A stretch of 37,006 nucleotides of DNA from a virus: IMG/VR virus record IMGVR_UViG_3300033388_002711, positions 1-37,006 of that record, one strand, 5' to 3'. Numbering within the stretch: the stretch's first letter is position 1; every line of letters begins with the position of its first letter. A program made the position numbers and the translations under genes. Below are positions 3,774 to 29,809 of this stretch, one piece after another. Below the pieces are notes generated by a model. That model was not told the DNA's origin. It worked only from the letters and a program-made list of their open reading frames with translations, and did not search any database.

Positions 3774-4091
3774 TTAGCAAGAGCCGCCCTTATCTACAAC
3801 TGTATGACATGTAGGGTTCTGTTCGTGGTATGTGTTACCGTCATTTGTGCCACTTGGCTGGAATCTCCATAACCCAACCGCATTTAATATATTTTGGGCT
3901 ATATCATATGTAAAAACGCCCTCTGTACCTACTGGGATTGAGGCTTCCCACTGTCCGTCAGCCGTGTTTGTTGCGTTCCCTGGTATAAAATAATCAAAGA
4001 ATGCTTGTTCCCCGGTTAAGTCAGTGACTACACCGCCTATCTTAAATACAGCAGTTAACCTCATCGGATCATTAATTACGCTTTCACTCAT
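3774..4091 (-). CDS. Small tail-associated structural protein (last late gene)
   Basis: 105 residues, beta-rich: MRLTAVFKIGGVVTDLTGEQAFFDYFIPG, then a compact domain ending LWRFQPSG and a Cys-containing tail. The N-terminal half resembles small BppU-like/immunoglobulin-like domains that hold fibres to baseplates, but I cannot assign a family. It overlaps the end of the adhesin gene by ATGA and is the final gene before the convergent junction. Confidence 0.55.
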   Translation of the reverse strand: MSESVINDPMRLTAVFKIGGVVTDLTGEQAFFDYFIPGNATNTADGQWEASIPVGTEGVFTYDIAQNILNAVGLWRFQPSGTNDGNTYHEQNPTCHTVVDKGGSC

Positions 4092-5983
4092 ATATCACAC
4101 CCTATTTCTATAGAATTTGTTATGTCAATATTAACATCAATTACATTTATTATATCACAAACAACTTGAATTGATATTAGCGGGAATACACCACCGGACA
4201 TTATACCTGAAATGTTTATACCTATATTTACATTAGAAGTTAATTGGATCTTTTCTTGTATGTCCTGTGTTCCGTTGATCTCAATACCCATTGAGACATT
4301 ACCGGTTAATGCTATAACTCCGCCCAAGTCTTGAACACCATCGGCAGTAATTCCCATTGAAACATTGCCGATTAATGGAATAACGCCGCCTAAATCCTGG
4401 ACACCATCAACATTAATTCCCATTGAAACATCAGCAGTTAGATCTATTTTCCCTTGAATATCTTGAACACCATCAACAGACATTCCAAAATCTACATTTC
4501 CTGTCAGTGCAACAACACCCGGGTCAACTATATCTAGTATAATTACTTTATTTGGTGCTGATACGTCGGTAATCGGTGATAAGTCTAAGGCCCTTACATC
4601 ATAACCCATTTGCACCATGTGAGATAAACCAATTAAAAGGTTTCCAGGTGCTTGATAATGATATGAGCTTGCATCACCATCAGGAAAGCAGACGACATCA
4701 TATGTAATTTCTGTTACAAGTTCCTTTATCTCTTTATCAGACCTTGACATGTGGACTGTGATGCCTTCACCGGCTAACGTTGCCAATGCCCCTTGTAGTA
4801 TTCCATTATATTCTAGCGGCTGTTCCCATACTCCCCAATTTCTGAAAGGCTCTGCTTCTCTACGGAATGAATAAGCTGTTTCATAGTGTATTTCCGCTAA
4901 AGGTGAATTGCTGGAAATATCCCTCATTGTAGCGAGAAATGTAGTCTCAAAGGCGGCCGCAGTTGTTTGTCCTGGATTATCCTGTCCACCGGACTCCTGG
5001 AAAATTACCTTAGAATATGTTGATCTATTGGAGTCTGATAGATATCTCTGTCTTGATTCTTCTAATGAAGCGCCACCAACGCCATCTTTATAGACTGTTG
5101 CATCATTTTGCAATAGTGCAATTACAGCATTAGGTGAATTAGAAGGTGGATCTGCTACAACTCCATTGGTTTCTGAATCTCCAAAGAATGCCCATATAGG
5201 TAAAGCTATAGTATCTTGAACACCATCAATCTGAATTCCAAGATTTACATTACCTGTTAGTTGTATATTCCCTGAAAGTGTTTGTGTCCCGTCTACTGCT
5301 ATTCCAATAGATACATCACCAGTAAGAGCAATTACTCCACCAGATACTGGAGGTTCAAGAGCTGAAAATCCAGGTGAACCTGTAGCGGAAAATGTAAAAT
5401 TCCCTTGATCATCTACAATATCGGCTACTAACGGAAGGTATGTTCTTAAATTTATATCAGCTATTCCCAGTTCATTGGGCAATATTCCCGATGCAAAATC
5501 AGATATGTTCTGAGCTGAAAATGCAATGTCAAAAATAGCTATATGGGACAATAAACCATCAACGAAAGATGACCGTGAGCTGTCACCTGTTGCACCGATT
5601 GTTGTTCTTGTGAAGTCGTTCGGGGTCTGGTTATCTGTGTTCTGACCTACACTGCCGCCGTCAATATAAGCTCGCCTATCTGTTGAACTATTAAAGACAC
5701 CGACAACCGAGTGCCACGTATCAATAGAATATCCAGTTGTCGTTCTGGCGTGCTCTGTTCCCCCAGCACGAGAAAAGGCATCGATAGGGAATCCCGCTGT
5801 TAATCCTTGAGCCTCAAGCATCAACCATTCTGATGTTGAACCACCATTGAAAACACCAACAATTTGATGGTTTGCCGATTGGTTAGCTATCCTTATCCAA
5901 CCGCAAAAAGTAGCTGGATAAGTTGTAATTACGGCTGAGGCTGTTTCAATAAATTGGTCAACACCATTTAATAATAGAGACAT
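4088..5983 (-). CDS. Tail adhesin: LamG-like domain, SGNH hydrolase and 22-residue repeats
   Basis: 631 residues in clear modules. Residues 1-190 are a LamG/concanavalin-A-like fold (GWIRIANQS, WHSVVGVFN, RRAYIDGG), likely for glycan binding. Residues 217-260 are two repeats of the type LTGNVxxGIxxDGVQD. Residues 262-475 are an SGNH/GDSL hydrolase: GDS at 268-270, a Gly block near 303, GGQDN at 332-336 in the GxND position, and DASSYHY (437-443) as probable Asp/His block, although the D-H spacing is wider than DxxH. Residues 490-599 hold five more repeats. It probably binds and deacylates host surface sugars from the tail tip. SD: AAGAGGT. The N-terminal LamG suggests an assembly with other fibre proteins. 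Confidence 0.8.
   Translation of the reverse strand: MSLLLNGVDQFIETASAVITTYPATFCGWIRIANQSANHQIVGVFNGGSTSEWLMLEAQGLTAGFPIDAFSRAGGTEHARTTTGYSIDTWHSVVGVFNSSTDRRAYIDGGSVGQNTDNQTPNDFTRTTIGATGDSSRSSFVDGLLSHIAIFDIAFSAQNISDFASGILPNELGIADINLRTYLPLVADIVDDQGNFTFSATGSPGFSALEPPVSGGVIALTGDVSIGIAVDGTQTLSGNIQLTGNVNLGIQIDGVQDTIALPIWAFFGDSETNGVVADPPSNSPNAVIALLQNDATVYKDGVGGASLEESRQRYLSDSNRSTYSKVIFQESGGQDNPGQTTAAAFETTFLATMRDISSNSPLAEIHYETAYSFRREAEPFRNWGVWEQPLEYNGILQGALATLAGEGITVHMSRSDKEIKELVTEITYDVVCFPDGDASSYHYQAPGNLLIGLSHMVQMGYDVRALDLSPITDVSAPNKVIILDIVDPGVVALTGNVDFGMSVDGVQDIQGKIDLTADVSMGINVDGVQDLGGVIPLIGNVSMGITADGVQDLGGVIALTGNVSMGIEINGTQDIQEKIQLTSNVNIGINISGIMSGGVFPLISIQVVCDIINVIDVNIDITNSIEIGCDI
4187..4516 (-). 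repeat. Five tandem 66-bp (22-aa) repeats after the SGNH domain
   Basis: Five units of the type LTGNVSMGIxVDGVQDLGGVI are in register with a period of 22 residues (residues about 490-599). Two more units stand before the hydrolase (5204-5335). The DNA copies are similar but not identical. Confidence 0.85.
5204..5335 (-). repeat. Two 22-23-aa repeats before the SGNH domain
   Basis: The units at residues about 217-239 and 240-260 have the same consensus as the five repeats at 4187-4516. The enzyme domain thus sits inside a repeat ladder. Confidence 0.8.
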
Positions 5984-6371: not shown

Positions 6372-6761
6372 CTATCTAATTCTAATAATCGCCGGTTTAA
6401 TCGCCGGTAGTGCTGAATCTATTTTAAAAGTCTGTGGTATTCCATCTATTGTTATTACATCACCCTCAATATCTGAGCGAAGCCACTCTGAAACAGTCCA
6501 CATATCAGGTTCTGTGAATGTTTTACCCCTCACTAATATAGCAAAAGACCCATAGATCTCAAGCCCCTGTAAATCAACTAAATATTCAAGATCTGCTGTG
6601 TCACCTAGAATGATGATCTCATCAAGTCCCATCTGTATCCCGATCTCATGAAGATCTGATTCTCCGTTCCATGTTACAGTCTGGGGAGAATCTACTCTAT
6701 TTTGAGAGCAAGCCAACACTGGTAATAATACCAGTGCTGTTAATAACAAAATGCGTTTCAT
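6372..6761 (-). CDS. Predicted lipoprotein (129 aa) after the lysis genes
   Basis: Starts at ATG 6761 (TAATG overlap with the holin-like gene), not further upstream. MKRILLLTALVLLPVLACSQ is a clear lipoprotein signal with the lipobox V-L-A-C and acylated Cys at 18. The mature part (about 110 residues) is soluble and may form a globular domain (NGESDLHEIGIQMGLDEIIILGD). Candidates: a second outer-membrane lysis factor, or a superinfection-exclusion lipoprotein. No family recognised. Confidence 0.65.
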   Translation of the reverse strand: MKRILLLTALVLLPVLACSQNRVDSPQTVTWNGESDLHEIGIQMGLDEIIILGDTADLEYLVDLQGLEIYGSFAILVRGKTFTEPDMWTVSEWLRSDIEGDVITIDGIPQTFKIDSALPAIKPAIIRIR

Positions 6762-6937
6762 TAGTCTGCTATCTTTGTTACTGCATACCCAAGCGCCCCC
6801 GCAATTGCAACCACAAGAGCTGATACAGTGGAAACCCATGGAGGCAATGATGTAAATGCAACGATCATGATATTAGTGAATAGTCCTAAAACACATGAAA
6901 TTATTCCTGCTATTCCTGCTTTCTGTCTGTTTGTCAT
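6761..6937 (-). CDS. Holin-like membrane protein (two TM segments, 58 aa)
   Basis: Start chosen at ATG 6937, seven bases after GAAGGA; a TTG at 6952 in frame is less likely. Two hydrophobic segments, residues about 8-31 (AGIAGIISCVLGLFTNIMIVAFTSL) and 35-53 (VSTVSALVVAIAGALGYAV), with charged ends, are typical of small class II holins, which form inner-membrane holes at lysis. It lies directly behind the spanin pair. A second holin-like gene is at 7434-7649; which is holin and which antiholin cannot be told. Confidence 0.6.
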   Translation of the reverse strand: MTNRQKAGIAGIISCVLGLFTNIMIVAFTSLPPWVSTVSALVVAIAGALGYAVTKIAD

Positions 6938-6941
6938 TCGT

Positions 6942-7247
6942 TCATCCTTCAAAATCTTTTTTTATTCTGCGTAATTCATCTATATAATATTGTACTGAAT
7001 CCCACCCATCTGCAGCGTAGTTTTTCAGATCTACAATATAACTGGCTAATATTTTAAGATCTTCTTGTGATACTAAATAATTACTCTCATCAATTGCTGT
7101 AAACGTCCATGGTTCATGAACCGGCTCTATCTCTATAGTAGGTTCTATAATAGAAGGGACAACGTAAACAGTAGTTTTACAGGCTGTTAACGAGAAGAAG
7201 AAGCTCGTCGCCAGTAGCATTATTAATATTGTTTTTGACTGTTTCAC
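6942..7247 (-). CDS. Outer-membrane spanin-like lipoprotein (Rz1-type)
   Basis: 101 residues. Lipoprotein signal MKQSKTILIMLLATSFFFSLTACK with lipobox L-T-A-C. The mature protein has a Pro/Glu-rich start (EPTIEIEPVHEP) and a helical C-terminus. Its first 71 bases overlap the gene of the inner-membrane partner in another frame, the arrangement of Rz/Rz1 gene pairs. The two proteins would connect inner and outer membranes across the periplasm in the last step of lysis. It implies a host with an outer membrane. Confidence 0.75.
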   Translation of the reverse strand: MKQSKTILIMLLATSFFFSLTACKTTVYVVPSIIEPTIEIEPVHEPWTFTAIDESNYLVSQEDLKILASYIVDLKNYAADGWDSVQYYIDELRRIKKDFEG

Positions 7248-7437
7248 TCTCTACCTTCCTATTATTTAGTTTCACAATTAAAGCCTTATAGTTCTTCACA
7301 TTTGCAACCATACTATCATGCTCACGTTCTGCAAAATCAAGTTTAAACTTCAGTGATTTATTCTTCTTAACTAATGATCGTATCCAGAAGAACGCCACCA
7401 CTACTACACATATTATAGCACATATTAAATATATCAT
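7177..7437 (-). CDS. Inner-membrane spanin-like protein (Rz-type)
   Basis: 86 residues: an N-terminal membrane anchor (MIYLICAIICVVVVAFFWI) followed by a long charged helix (about residues 22-60), as in i-spanins, although short. It overlaps the upstream holin-like gene by ATGA and the o-spanin gene by 71 bases. It is the partner of the lipoprotein at 6942-7247. Confidence rests on topology and gene overlap, not on sequence similarity. Confidence 0.7.
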   Translation of the reverse strand: MIYLICAIICVVVVAFFWIRSLVKKNKSLKFKLDFAEREHDSMVANVKNYKALIVKLNNRKVESETVKNNINNATGDELLLLVNSL

Positions 7438-7649
7438 TCATTAGAACCTGATACAGCATTTCCTACAATCCGTTTTGCGGAGTTTGCTGTTAGTATTGCG
7501 ATGCCTGCAGTTCCCCAATATGTTGCTGCTTGCATTGCTTCTTGAAAGTCTATTGCTTTGATAAATCCTAGAATCGTTAATACCATTGCAAAGCCTAAAC
7601 AAATATAACCTGTTAATTTCATCTTCTGCACTTTTGGCGTTTCTAACAT
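7434..7649 (-). CDS. Holin-like membrane protein (71 aa)
   Basis: Two hydrophobic segments (about 13-32 and 42-58), a basic N-terminus and a polar C-terminus (KRIVGNAVSGSNE). SD AAAGGGG. It follows the M23 peptidase gene and precedes the spanins, the usual place of a holin. The other small membrane protein (6761-6937) may be its partner or antagonist. Confidence 0.6.
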   Translation of the reverse strand: MLETPKVQKMKLTGYICLGFAMVLTILGFIKAIDFQEAMQAATYWGTAGIAILTANSAKRIVGNAVSGSNE

Positions 7650-7670: not shown

Positions 7671-8123
7671 TCACACTTCAAAGCCAATTAAAATATAATT
7701 ACCATACCCTATGTCTGTACCTGTTTTAATGACAGTTCCAGCACAAGATCTATTCCAATATATATCAAAACTAGTATAGCTTTTATTTTTAGGGTATACA
7801 TCATACCCAGGATGTAGAATTAACTTCCCGAATTGGTCTTTGTATTCAGGATCACAGTAATAAGAAGATATAGATATATCAGTGTCGAATAGTTCTTTGT
7901 CGATAAATAAGGCTCTTTGTCTTGCGTGCTCTCGGGATGGTTCAATCTCTGATAGTCTCCATATGTATTGATGAGTGTTTTCTATAATGTCAAGATGTAA
8001 GTGAGCCCCTGAGGATTTGCCAGTATTGCCCATTATCCCGATGTTGTCACCACGGGTAATAGTTTGACCTGTTCTGAATACCGGAACAGATCCCAAATGG
8101 CCATATTTAGCAGTGTATTTCAT
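7671..8123 (-). CDS. M23-type endopeptidase with circularly permuted domain (lysis or tail peptidase)
   Basis: 150 residues. M23 (LytM/lysostaphin-type) zinc peptidases normally run HxxxD, then a GYGNY strand, then YxHL, then HLH. Here the second half comes first: KYGHL (His9), GDNIGIMGNTGKSSGAHLHLDI (HxH at 41-43). The first half comes last: LHPGYDVYP (His104, Asp108), GTVI, DIGYGNYILIGFEV. All expected zinc ligands and the catalytic His are present, and the C-terminal strand ends exactly where the N-terminal KYGHL would continue. A linker of about 50 residues joins the old ends. It would cleave peptidoglycan cross-links at lysis. Start supported by GAGGTGGT and an ATGA overlap with the upstream gene; no signal peptide, so export through the holin is expected. 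Confidence 0.85.
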   Translation of the reverse strand: MKYTAKYGHLGSVPVFRTGQTITRGDNIGIMGNTGKSSGAHLHLDIIENTHQYIWRLSEIEPSREHARQRALFIDKELFDTDISISSYYCDPEYKDQFGKLILHPGYDVYPKNKSYTSFDIYWNRSCAGTVIKTGTDIGYGNYILIGFEV

Positions 8124-8431
8124 TGACCACCTCTGCTTTCATTAACCAGCCACTCAAGGTTTGCTTCTATCCCGAATAGCCTGGCTTGTACATCAATAAC
8201 AACAGGTTTTATTACATCTAGCTCTTTTAATAATGCTGTATCCGCACTTTCCCTAGTATCTATTTCATTGGCTATCATAGTCTCAAGCCTTGTGTCTGTG
8301 GCTTCCATTTGAGCTTTCCATGTAGCAAATGTAAATGAAGCTGTCACAACGAAGCCGACTAAAATGACAAAGTTTATTATGCCTAAAGATATCTTTGTCT
8401 TTTCGTTTAACAAGAAAGCCCCCAATTTCAC
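8120..8431 (-). CDS. Membrane-anchored coiled-coil protein
   Basis: 103 residues starting at GTG 8431. One membrane segment (about 14-38, ISLGIINFVILVGFVVTASF), then a charged helical region likely to form a coiled coil (ATDTRLETMIANEIDTRESADTALL). ATGA overlap with the peptidase gene suggests a lysis-associated role; another spanin-like or holin-associated protein is possible. Not recognised. Confidence 0.55.
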   Translation of the reverse strand: MKLGAFLLNEKTKISLGIINFVILVGFVVTASFTFATWKAQMEATDTRLETMIANEIDTRESADTALLKELDVIKPVVIDVQARLFGIEANLEWLVNESRGGQ

Positions 8432-28558: not shown

Positions 28559-29809
28559 TTAGTGAAAACTTTGCTCACTTATATAATACCTTCTTTTAAC
28601 CAAACTTGCAAACGAGTCTGGAGCATCATCATGCCCGGCGTTCTCGTTATAGTCCATAATTTCCGCTATATATGCAGTGTCGCCGTTATCCAGATCAAAT
28701 ATCACATCTTTCCAACGTGCTTTTCCGTATGTGGATATCTTATAGTATTTGTTCATGCCCTCATGGTATCCTGTCCCTGAAATACTCGTTAGCCTGGAAA
28801 GGTCTTTTCTCAAGAATCCTTTATCGGCGTTATTCTCACAGTCATAAGAATGGCACTGATAACGCTCCATTTTAGACACTATCTCGTTATAATGCTTATC
28901 GATGTGACCTTCCATCATCCAGCCTATAGTGTGCAGTTTGCCGTCCACCTCTGCAATTATAGTCAGTGCTGTTCTGTCCTCTCCACCATAAGCAGCGTCT
29001 ATATGAGCCTGTGTGCTTGCTCCTACTGGAAACGCTCCATACTGTGGCTCTGGGAATAATATGTCACCGTCGGCAATATGCTTAAGCTCATAGTTTGCAG
29101 CAAATAGAGAAGGGGGAAGAATACCTTTTCTTTCCTCTATCACTTCAGGTGATAATATCCCGGTCTCATATACCGTGTAAGTGTCTGGTCTCGGCATTAC
29201 TGTAAAAGCATCATCTTTATGCCATGGCGTGCCCGTGTTGAATATCCTATGGTTATCTTCAGATGCAATATTGATCAGCTCGTGATATTGGCTTTTGGTT
29301 GCTTCTCGCTCTGCAGTAGATACGCGGTCTTTTACCGTGATTATATCATCAGTAAAAACAGATCCATGTTTACCGGTTATTGATGATTTTAAACCCATAC
29401 CTAATAATTGCCGTCCCATTTGGCCCTTATATGTTGATAGTTCATATTCAGAATAATTGTCTACTGCTGGTGTGGGATAAACTCCGTATATAGATTTGAA
29501 TAAGGTTTGGACAATAGGCTTCTGCATATTCCTAGAAACAGCTTCCAGGACGTCTTTGACATCTTCGGCTGTTTTCCTTAAAAATATGATATTCTCTTTA
29601 GGCTTTAATATAAGCCATATTGTTAATGCAATAATTAGGCATGTTGTTTTGTATGATCCCCTATGTGCTTGTAGTGTTCCGTTTTTCTTGAGCATTACCA
29701 TTCTGATAATCCAGTCTTTGTGTATCGTATCATTCAGCTTAGTGAATCCCAGCTCATGAGCAAACGGTATCGGGTTATCTAGGATCTTTGATAATAGGTT
29801 TATGCTCAT
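28559..29809 (-). CDS. terL: Terminase large subunit
   Basis: 416 residues. ATPase: Walker A-like HRGSYKTT (49-56), Walker B VFTDD (151-155), coupling TGTP (192-195). Nuclease: Asp271 in HIDAAYGGEDRTAL, DCENN (323-327), and a DDAPDS acidic cluster near 394-399. It packages DNA into the prohead and cuts concatemers. Follows TerS with an ATGA overlap. The Walker A is a variant (GSYKTT), which is common in terminases. Confidence 0.95.
   Translation of the reverse strand: MSINLLSKILDNPIPFAHELGFTKLNDTIHKDWIIRMVMLKKNGTLQAHRGSYKTTCLIIALTIWLILKPKENIIFLRKTAEDVKDVLEAVSRNMQKPIVQTLFKSIYGVYPTPAVDNYSEYELSTYKGQMGRQLLGMGLKSSITGKHGSVFTDDIITVKDRVSTAEREATKSQYHELINIASEDNHRIFNTGTPWHKDDAFTVMPRPDTYTVYETGILSPEVIEERKGILPPSLFAANYELKHIADGDILFPEPQYGAFPVGASTQAHIDAAYGGEDRTALTIIAEVDGKLHTIGWMMEGHIDKHYNEIVSKMERYQCHSYDCENNADKGFLRKDLSRLTSISGTGYHEGMNKYYKISTYGKARWKDVIFDLDNGDTAYIAEIMDYNENAGHDDAPDSFASLVKRRYYISEQSFH

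Follow-up and report, generated by a model that had tools for sequence, protein, structure and literature searches.

The gene at 7671..8123 (minus strand) of the window, meaning here the whole 37,006-nucleotide stretch of viral DNA that was analysed, very probably codes for a phage endolysin that has a circularly permuted M23 (LytM-type) zinc metallopeptidase as its catalytic domain. The open reading frame (ORF), annotated as a permuted M23 endopeptidase gene from the frame itself, a Pfam match, its homologues and hydropathy, starts with an ATG at 8123 and stops at 7671–7673 to give a protein of 150 amino acids. The upstream gene runs 4 bases into this ORF, its stop overlapping the start. A hydropathy scan found neither a signal peptide nor a transmembrane (TM) segment in this protein or in its homologues. 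The first-pass annotation had reported that the motifs of the M23 domain occur in swapped order and had attributed this to circular permutation. The swapped order was borne out by the ORF, by Pfam, by a family profile and by rotated BLAST pieces, and the permutation itself is strongly supported by its occurrence on ten separate contigs, by a profile alignment running through the junction and by the position of the break in a beta-hairpin.

The InterPro M23 domain spans the sequence from Hx3D to HxH (PMC9662197). The window protein does not follow this linear order, as the C-half motifs KYGHL and HLH come first and the N-half motifs HPGYD and GYGN last, placing HxH at residues 41–43 and Hx3D at residues 104–108; likewise in the nine homologues described below. 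The Pfam M23 profile scored 46.4 bits against the window protein, above the curated cut-off of 28.7, with the best stretch being profile positions 45–92 of 96 only, matched at residues 3–51. Thus the C-terminal half of the M23 domain (residues 1–50, YxHL ... GNTGxSxGxHLHLD; 7974..8123, minus strand) sits at the N-terminus of the protein. The last 60 residues alone gave no Pfam M23 match, so other evidence was needed for the N-terminal half, which was assigned to residues 84–150 (ISSYY.DP.Y ... HPGYD ... WNRS..G.V ... GYGNYILIGFEV; 7674..7874, minus strand) using hhalign with shuffled controls and the rotated BLAST pieces.

Comparison by hhalign of a profile of residues 84–150 with one built from 26 normal M23 domains gave a probability of 94%, an E-value of 1.1e-7 and a score of 42.3, whereas 60 column-shuffled controls for the N-half profile scored 16.0 or less. 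A permutation-aware alignment to M23, of the kind proposed in the first-pass annotation, was obtained by matching the whole permuted family to a doubled normal M23 profile. Residues 2–149 were covered in one alignment (E 1.2e-24), which runs across the old C-to-N junction. For many pairs of permuted and normal M23 proteins, pairwise BLAST also split the match into two pieces whose order is rotated. When the permuted protein of contig L004 was compared with the normal-order phage M23 protein at L018:2324-3184, residues 81–144 aligned to 1–67 (E 1e-5) and residues 7–45 to 78–115. The N-half of the L018 protein, ITQKYKNNPTYYAQFGLKGHEGLDLVPLSGSWDI, resembles the permuted N-half of L004, ITTYYGCPDYQQRFKKVHTGYDVIPESGDWSI, and is its best BLAST match. 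Going by this similarity, the L018 protein may be related to the ancestor that preceded the permutation.

Full-length proteins of the swapped order were found, in answer to the earlier call for such homologues in other phages, on nine further IMG/VR viral contigs (L004, L006, L009, L010, L087, L088, L089, L090 and L102), making ten with the window, each on its own contig. A DNA pattern for the swapped order gave one match in the window and matched three viral contigs, two of which (L004 and L006) hold full-length homologues; the third, L005, was rejected as a normal-order fragment. The others were added by profile-guided scans of IMG/VR. Identity to the window protein is 39–48% for the eight homologues in alignment A3, L102 having been aligned later. 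One family member, L010:6001-7221, is a fusion protein of 406 amino acids that combines two enzymes, the permuted M23 and, C-terminal to it, a phosphodiester glycosidase domain (PF09992 NAGPA, E 6e-16).

A scan of IMG/VR with the window protein as single query found no relative. With three family members as queries, tblastn against 50,697 phage records gave no credible permuted homologue among the few matches inspected. The best apparent full-length match, MT836027 (L002), has its M23 in normal order with another domain after it, and the remaining high-coverage matches are of low identity. Among plasmids, a single record had 80% coverage, and its annotation is that of a tape measure protein. 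Two degenerate patterns, run once across 84,980 species genomes, brought up no full-length permuted member, and in 399 + 399 genomes sampled from two phyla, searched without a positive control genome, nothing matched a connector-plus-N-half profile. The matches to a shorter-connector pattern were all normal-order or chance. Within the collections searched, the permuted family is known solely from uncultured virus contigs.

The positions that are invariant in all ten aligned proteins are M1, T4, H9, L10, G19, G29, M31, G32, G35, S37, H41, L42, H43 and D45 in the C-half, L57, Q69, F73 and D75 in the connector, and Y89, Y94, K100, H104, D108, I121, W123, N124, R125, G129, Y140 and G141 in the N-half, where an invariant WNR motif is found; for M1, the GTG with which L102 begins was counted as Met. 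His9, His41, His43, His104 and Asp108, which had been numbered correctly in the first-pass annotation, are thus invariant in 10/10. In M23 enzymes Hx3D and the second HxH His hold the zinc, and water is activated by the first HxH His, perhaps together with a His ∼30 residues ahead of that motif (PMC9662197). Following these roles, His104 and Asp108 of HPGYD (7800..7814, minus strand) and His43 of HLH (7995..8003, minus strand) are putative zinc ligands, His41 of HLH is the putative water-activating residue and His9 (8097..8099, minus strand), the equivalent of LytM His260, is a putative catalytic His, its spacing of 32 residues from His41 fitting the expected position.

The permuted protein is probably still an active zinc endopeptidase, since the zinc and catalytic residues are invariant, purifying selection is strong and the gene lies in a neighbourhood of lysis genes. 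The oxyanion-stabilising residue in M23 enzymes is Tyr204 in LytM or an Arg in EnpA. No clear equivalent of either could be seen in the alignment of the permuted family, and the invariant Y94 or K100 might, judging from their conservation, be candidates for this role.

The two halves are joined by residues 51–83 (7875..7973, minus strand), as delimited from alignments, AlphaFold2 and dN/dS in close relatives. A new linker of 50 residues had been postulated previously. A joining segment is indeed present but its length is ∼33 residues: residues 84–103 are the first-strand region of the M23 domain (ITTYY.DP.Y...GK) ahead of H.GYD, as in the normal phage M23 of L018, and therefore belong to the N-half. 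The connector is conserved and probably structured; its length is similar in all ten permuted proteins and AlphaFold2 predicted helices at residues 64–73 and 76–79. It possibly includes the old C-terminal M23 tail, as its FIDxxLF can be overlaid, with weak similarity (E 0.13), on the vDPxxyL found in the tails of normal M23 domains. If this similarity is true, the old tail would have been retained, as a tandem duplication would predict.

The dN/dS ratio was computed for the close trio L088/L089/L102. For the whole gene it was 0.03 (L088/L089), 0.05 (L088/L102) and 0.06 (L089/L102). By segment it was 0.08–0.13 for the C-half, where the synonymous distance between L088 and L089 is saturated and the ratio for that pair is without value, 0.02–0.05 for the connector and 0.03–0.05 for the N-half. 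Purifying selection maintains the entire chain, both halves and the connector.

The AlphaFold2 model, made with nine family members, is beta-rich and fairly confident, with a pLDDT of 80.5 and a pTM of 0.79, and the main strands of both halves are predicted with high confidence. Its free ends are strands 2–10 and 141–149, which correspond, by sequence alignment, to the hairpin preceding YAHL in normal M23 domains. Foldseek searches against the PDB and BFVD gave no meaningful match. As this tool aligns in sequence order, the empty result is neither for nor against a permuted fold.

The neighbouring genes resemble a lysis cassette, the holin and spanin assignments being made from hydropathy, layout and weak matches. 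Directly upstream, with its stop overlapping the lysin start, is a gene for a 103-residue, single-TM, holin/antiholin-like protein (8120..8431, minus strand; weak PHROG 10340 match, E 0.004; TM at residue 11). A small membrane protein of 71 residues (7434..7649, minus strand) is a possible holin from its hydropathy and position, with no confident family match. The gene at 7177..7437 (minus strand) encodes a probable inner-membrane spanin (Rz-like; weak matches to Rz-like PHROGs, the best at E 0.002; N-terminal TM), and that at 6942..7247 (minus strand), which overlaps it, a probable outer-membrane spanin lipoprotein (Rz1-like; lipobox LTAC; PHROG 812 Rz-like, E 2.6e-4). These spanin-like genes suggest that the host of the window phage is diderm. 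Small TM (holin-like) proteins adjoin the permuted gene in all ten contigs and proteins of spanin-like layout follow it in most of the other nine. The L010 cassette has two small TM proteins before the permuted gene, and no spanin-like gene was seen. In L004 and L009 a class 3 lipase-like protein (PF01764) is encoded inside the cassette (L004:8732-9322, E 2e-7; L009:6698-7285, E 0.005), right before a lipoprotein with a C-terminal TM, the layout of a unimolecular spanin.

Elsewhere in the window, right past the spanin genes, a lipoprotein-like ORF of 155 residues (6372-6839, minus strand) overlaps a two-TM ORF of 63 residues (6761-6952, minus strand). A protein of 631 residues (4088-5983, minus strand) carries several degenerate ALTGNVSMGIxVDGTQD-type repeats around its central region and a match to a PHROG virion structural protein at residues 18–161. 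The terminase large subunit (28559-29809, minus strand) shares ∼43% identity with the terminases of Enterococcus and Lactococcus phages, and the matched records also include Leptospira phages; it had no match in the other permuted-gene contigs, which are possibly fragments.

The window is a metagenomic virus contig and an assembly or sequencing artefact could in principle have reordered a normal gene; a sequence error that split or reordered the gene was also what the first-pass annotation had named as fatal to its own proposal. However, nine diverged contigs share both the order and similar neighbours, and the reading frame is intact and overlaps the upstream gene. The artefact is extremely improbable and is refuted by the homologues. 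A C-half followed by an N-half is also what a tandem M23 duplication leaves after losing both ends, and the protein could then be a degenerate remnant, two half-domains without catalysis and perhaps capable of binding only. This is highly unlikely given that all the ligands are invariant in 10/10, that dN/dS is 0.03–0.06 in close relatives and that the permuted M23 is the sole recognisable lysin, with no other peptidoglycan hydrolase found, in the set of window proteins that was scanned (PHROGs for 27 and Pfam for some, including part of the small ORFs).

Identical order and conservation would be displayed by a domain-swapped dimer with an intermolecular active site, the C-half of a chain being completed by the N-half of its partner. 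We regard such a dimer as quite unlikely, because the similar connector lengths in all ten proteins and the placing of the monomer model's free ends at the strands of the normal M23 hairpin make an intramolecular site the simpler explanation. It is doubtful, too, that the permutation is non-neutral, with the new ends giving the lysin a property which the normal order lacks and for which it was kept and spread. Such a property might be another folding order, tighter control over completion of the zinc site or new sites for fusion, as in the L010 protein. The earlier idea that assembly of the zinc site only after folding of both halves is a special trait fails since the normal order likewise needs both halves, and no finding favours the altered regulation which had been suggested to follow from permutation.

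Returning to the intramolecular permuted M23 enzyme, it most likely originated once. An M23 gene would have been duplicated in tandem and in frame, the N-half of the first copy and the C-half of the last would have been lost, and the permuted product would then have spread among phages. The ancestral domain would in this way have been cut at the beta-hairpin that connects the GYGNxxxI and YAHL strands, with the old C- and N-terminal regions now linked by the conserved segment 51–83. A normal-order sister gene at the same locus, which would be a direct witness of the event, was not found in the collections searched. After folding, zinc would be bound by His104, Asp108 and His43 and water activated by His41/His9. 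Opening of the inner membrane by the holin would allow the enzyme to reach the periplasm and cut the peptide cross-links of the peptidoglycan, and the spanins would complete lysis by fusing the membranes.

Linear profile and fold searches see only half of such a variant: what Pfam and PHROG recognise is the C-half, and the variant goes undetected by Foldseek. The family suggests that other permuted hydrolases may hide in phage genomes. M23 enzymes are among the most studied cell-wall hydrolases, and a natural permuted form indicates that the fold tolerates ends at the hairpin before YAHL and offers a natural template for lysin work. The view of how an M23 enzyme works is unchanged by the variant.

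The likeness to Peptidase M23 (PF01551; LytM, lysostaphin, MepM, ShyA) lies in the Hx3D and HxH motifs, the His ∼30 residues before HxH and the recognisable sequence of both halves. The window family differs in that HxH precedes Hx3D, with the break in the hairpin before YAHL, and in having the conserved connector and the invariant WNR motif. By its motifs and sequence the window protein is derived from M23 and, lacking the linear order by which the domain is defined, is not a standard member. The best PHROG matches of its C-half are normal-order phage M23 proteins (PHROGs 14988, 7767 and 3578), and L018 shares the N-half pattern NP.YY..FG.KGHEGLDLVP.SG.W.I. For PHROG 14988, L018 covers positions 5–126 in normal order and the window protein covers 83–216. 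The possibility that PHROG 14988 is itself a permuted family, raised by the match of window residues 2–124 to 83–216, was rejected because L018 shows normal order. Searches of the open literature, which take in few subscription journals and no preprints, turned up no permuted M23, and 'permut' occurs nowhere in the M23 review PMC9662197. The ten proteins are a real, conserved and rearranged form of a common family, with no prior description found in that literature. The known precedent for permutation is provided by the circularly permuted NlpC/P60 families (YaeF, LRAT-like), a natural permutation within a peptidoglycan-related peptidase superfamily (PMC6403190). These differ from the window family in being cysteine peptidases of an unrelated fold and not M23.
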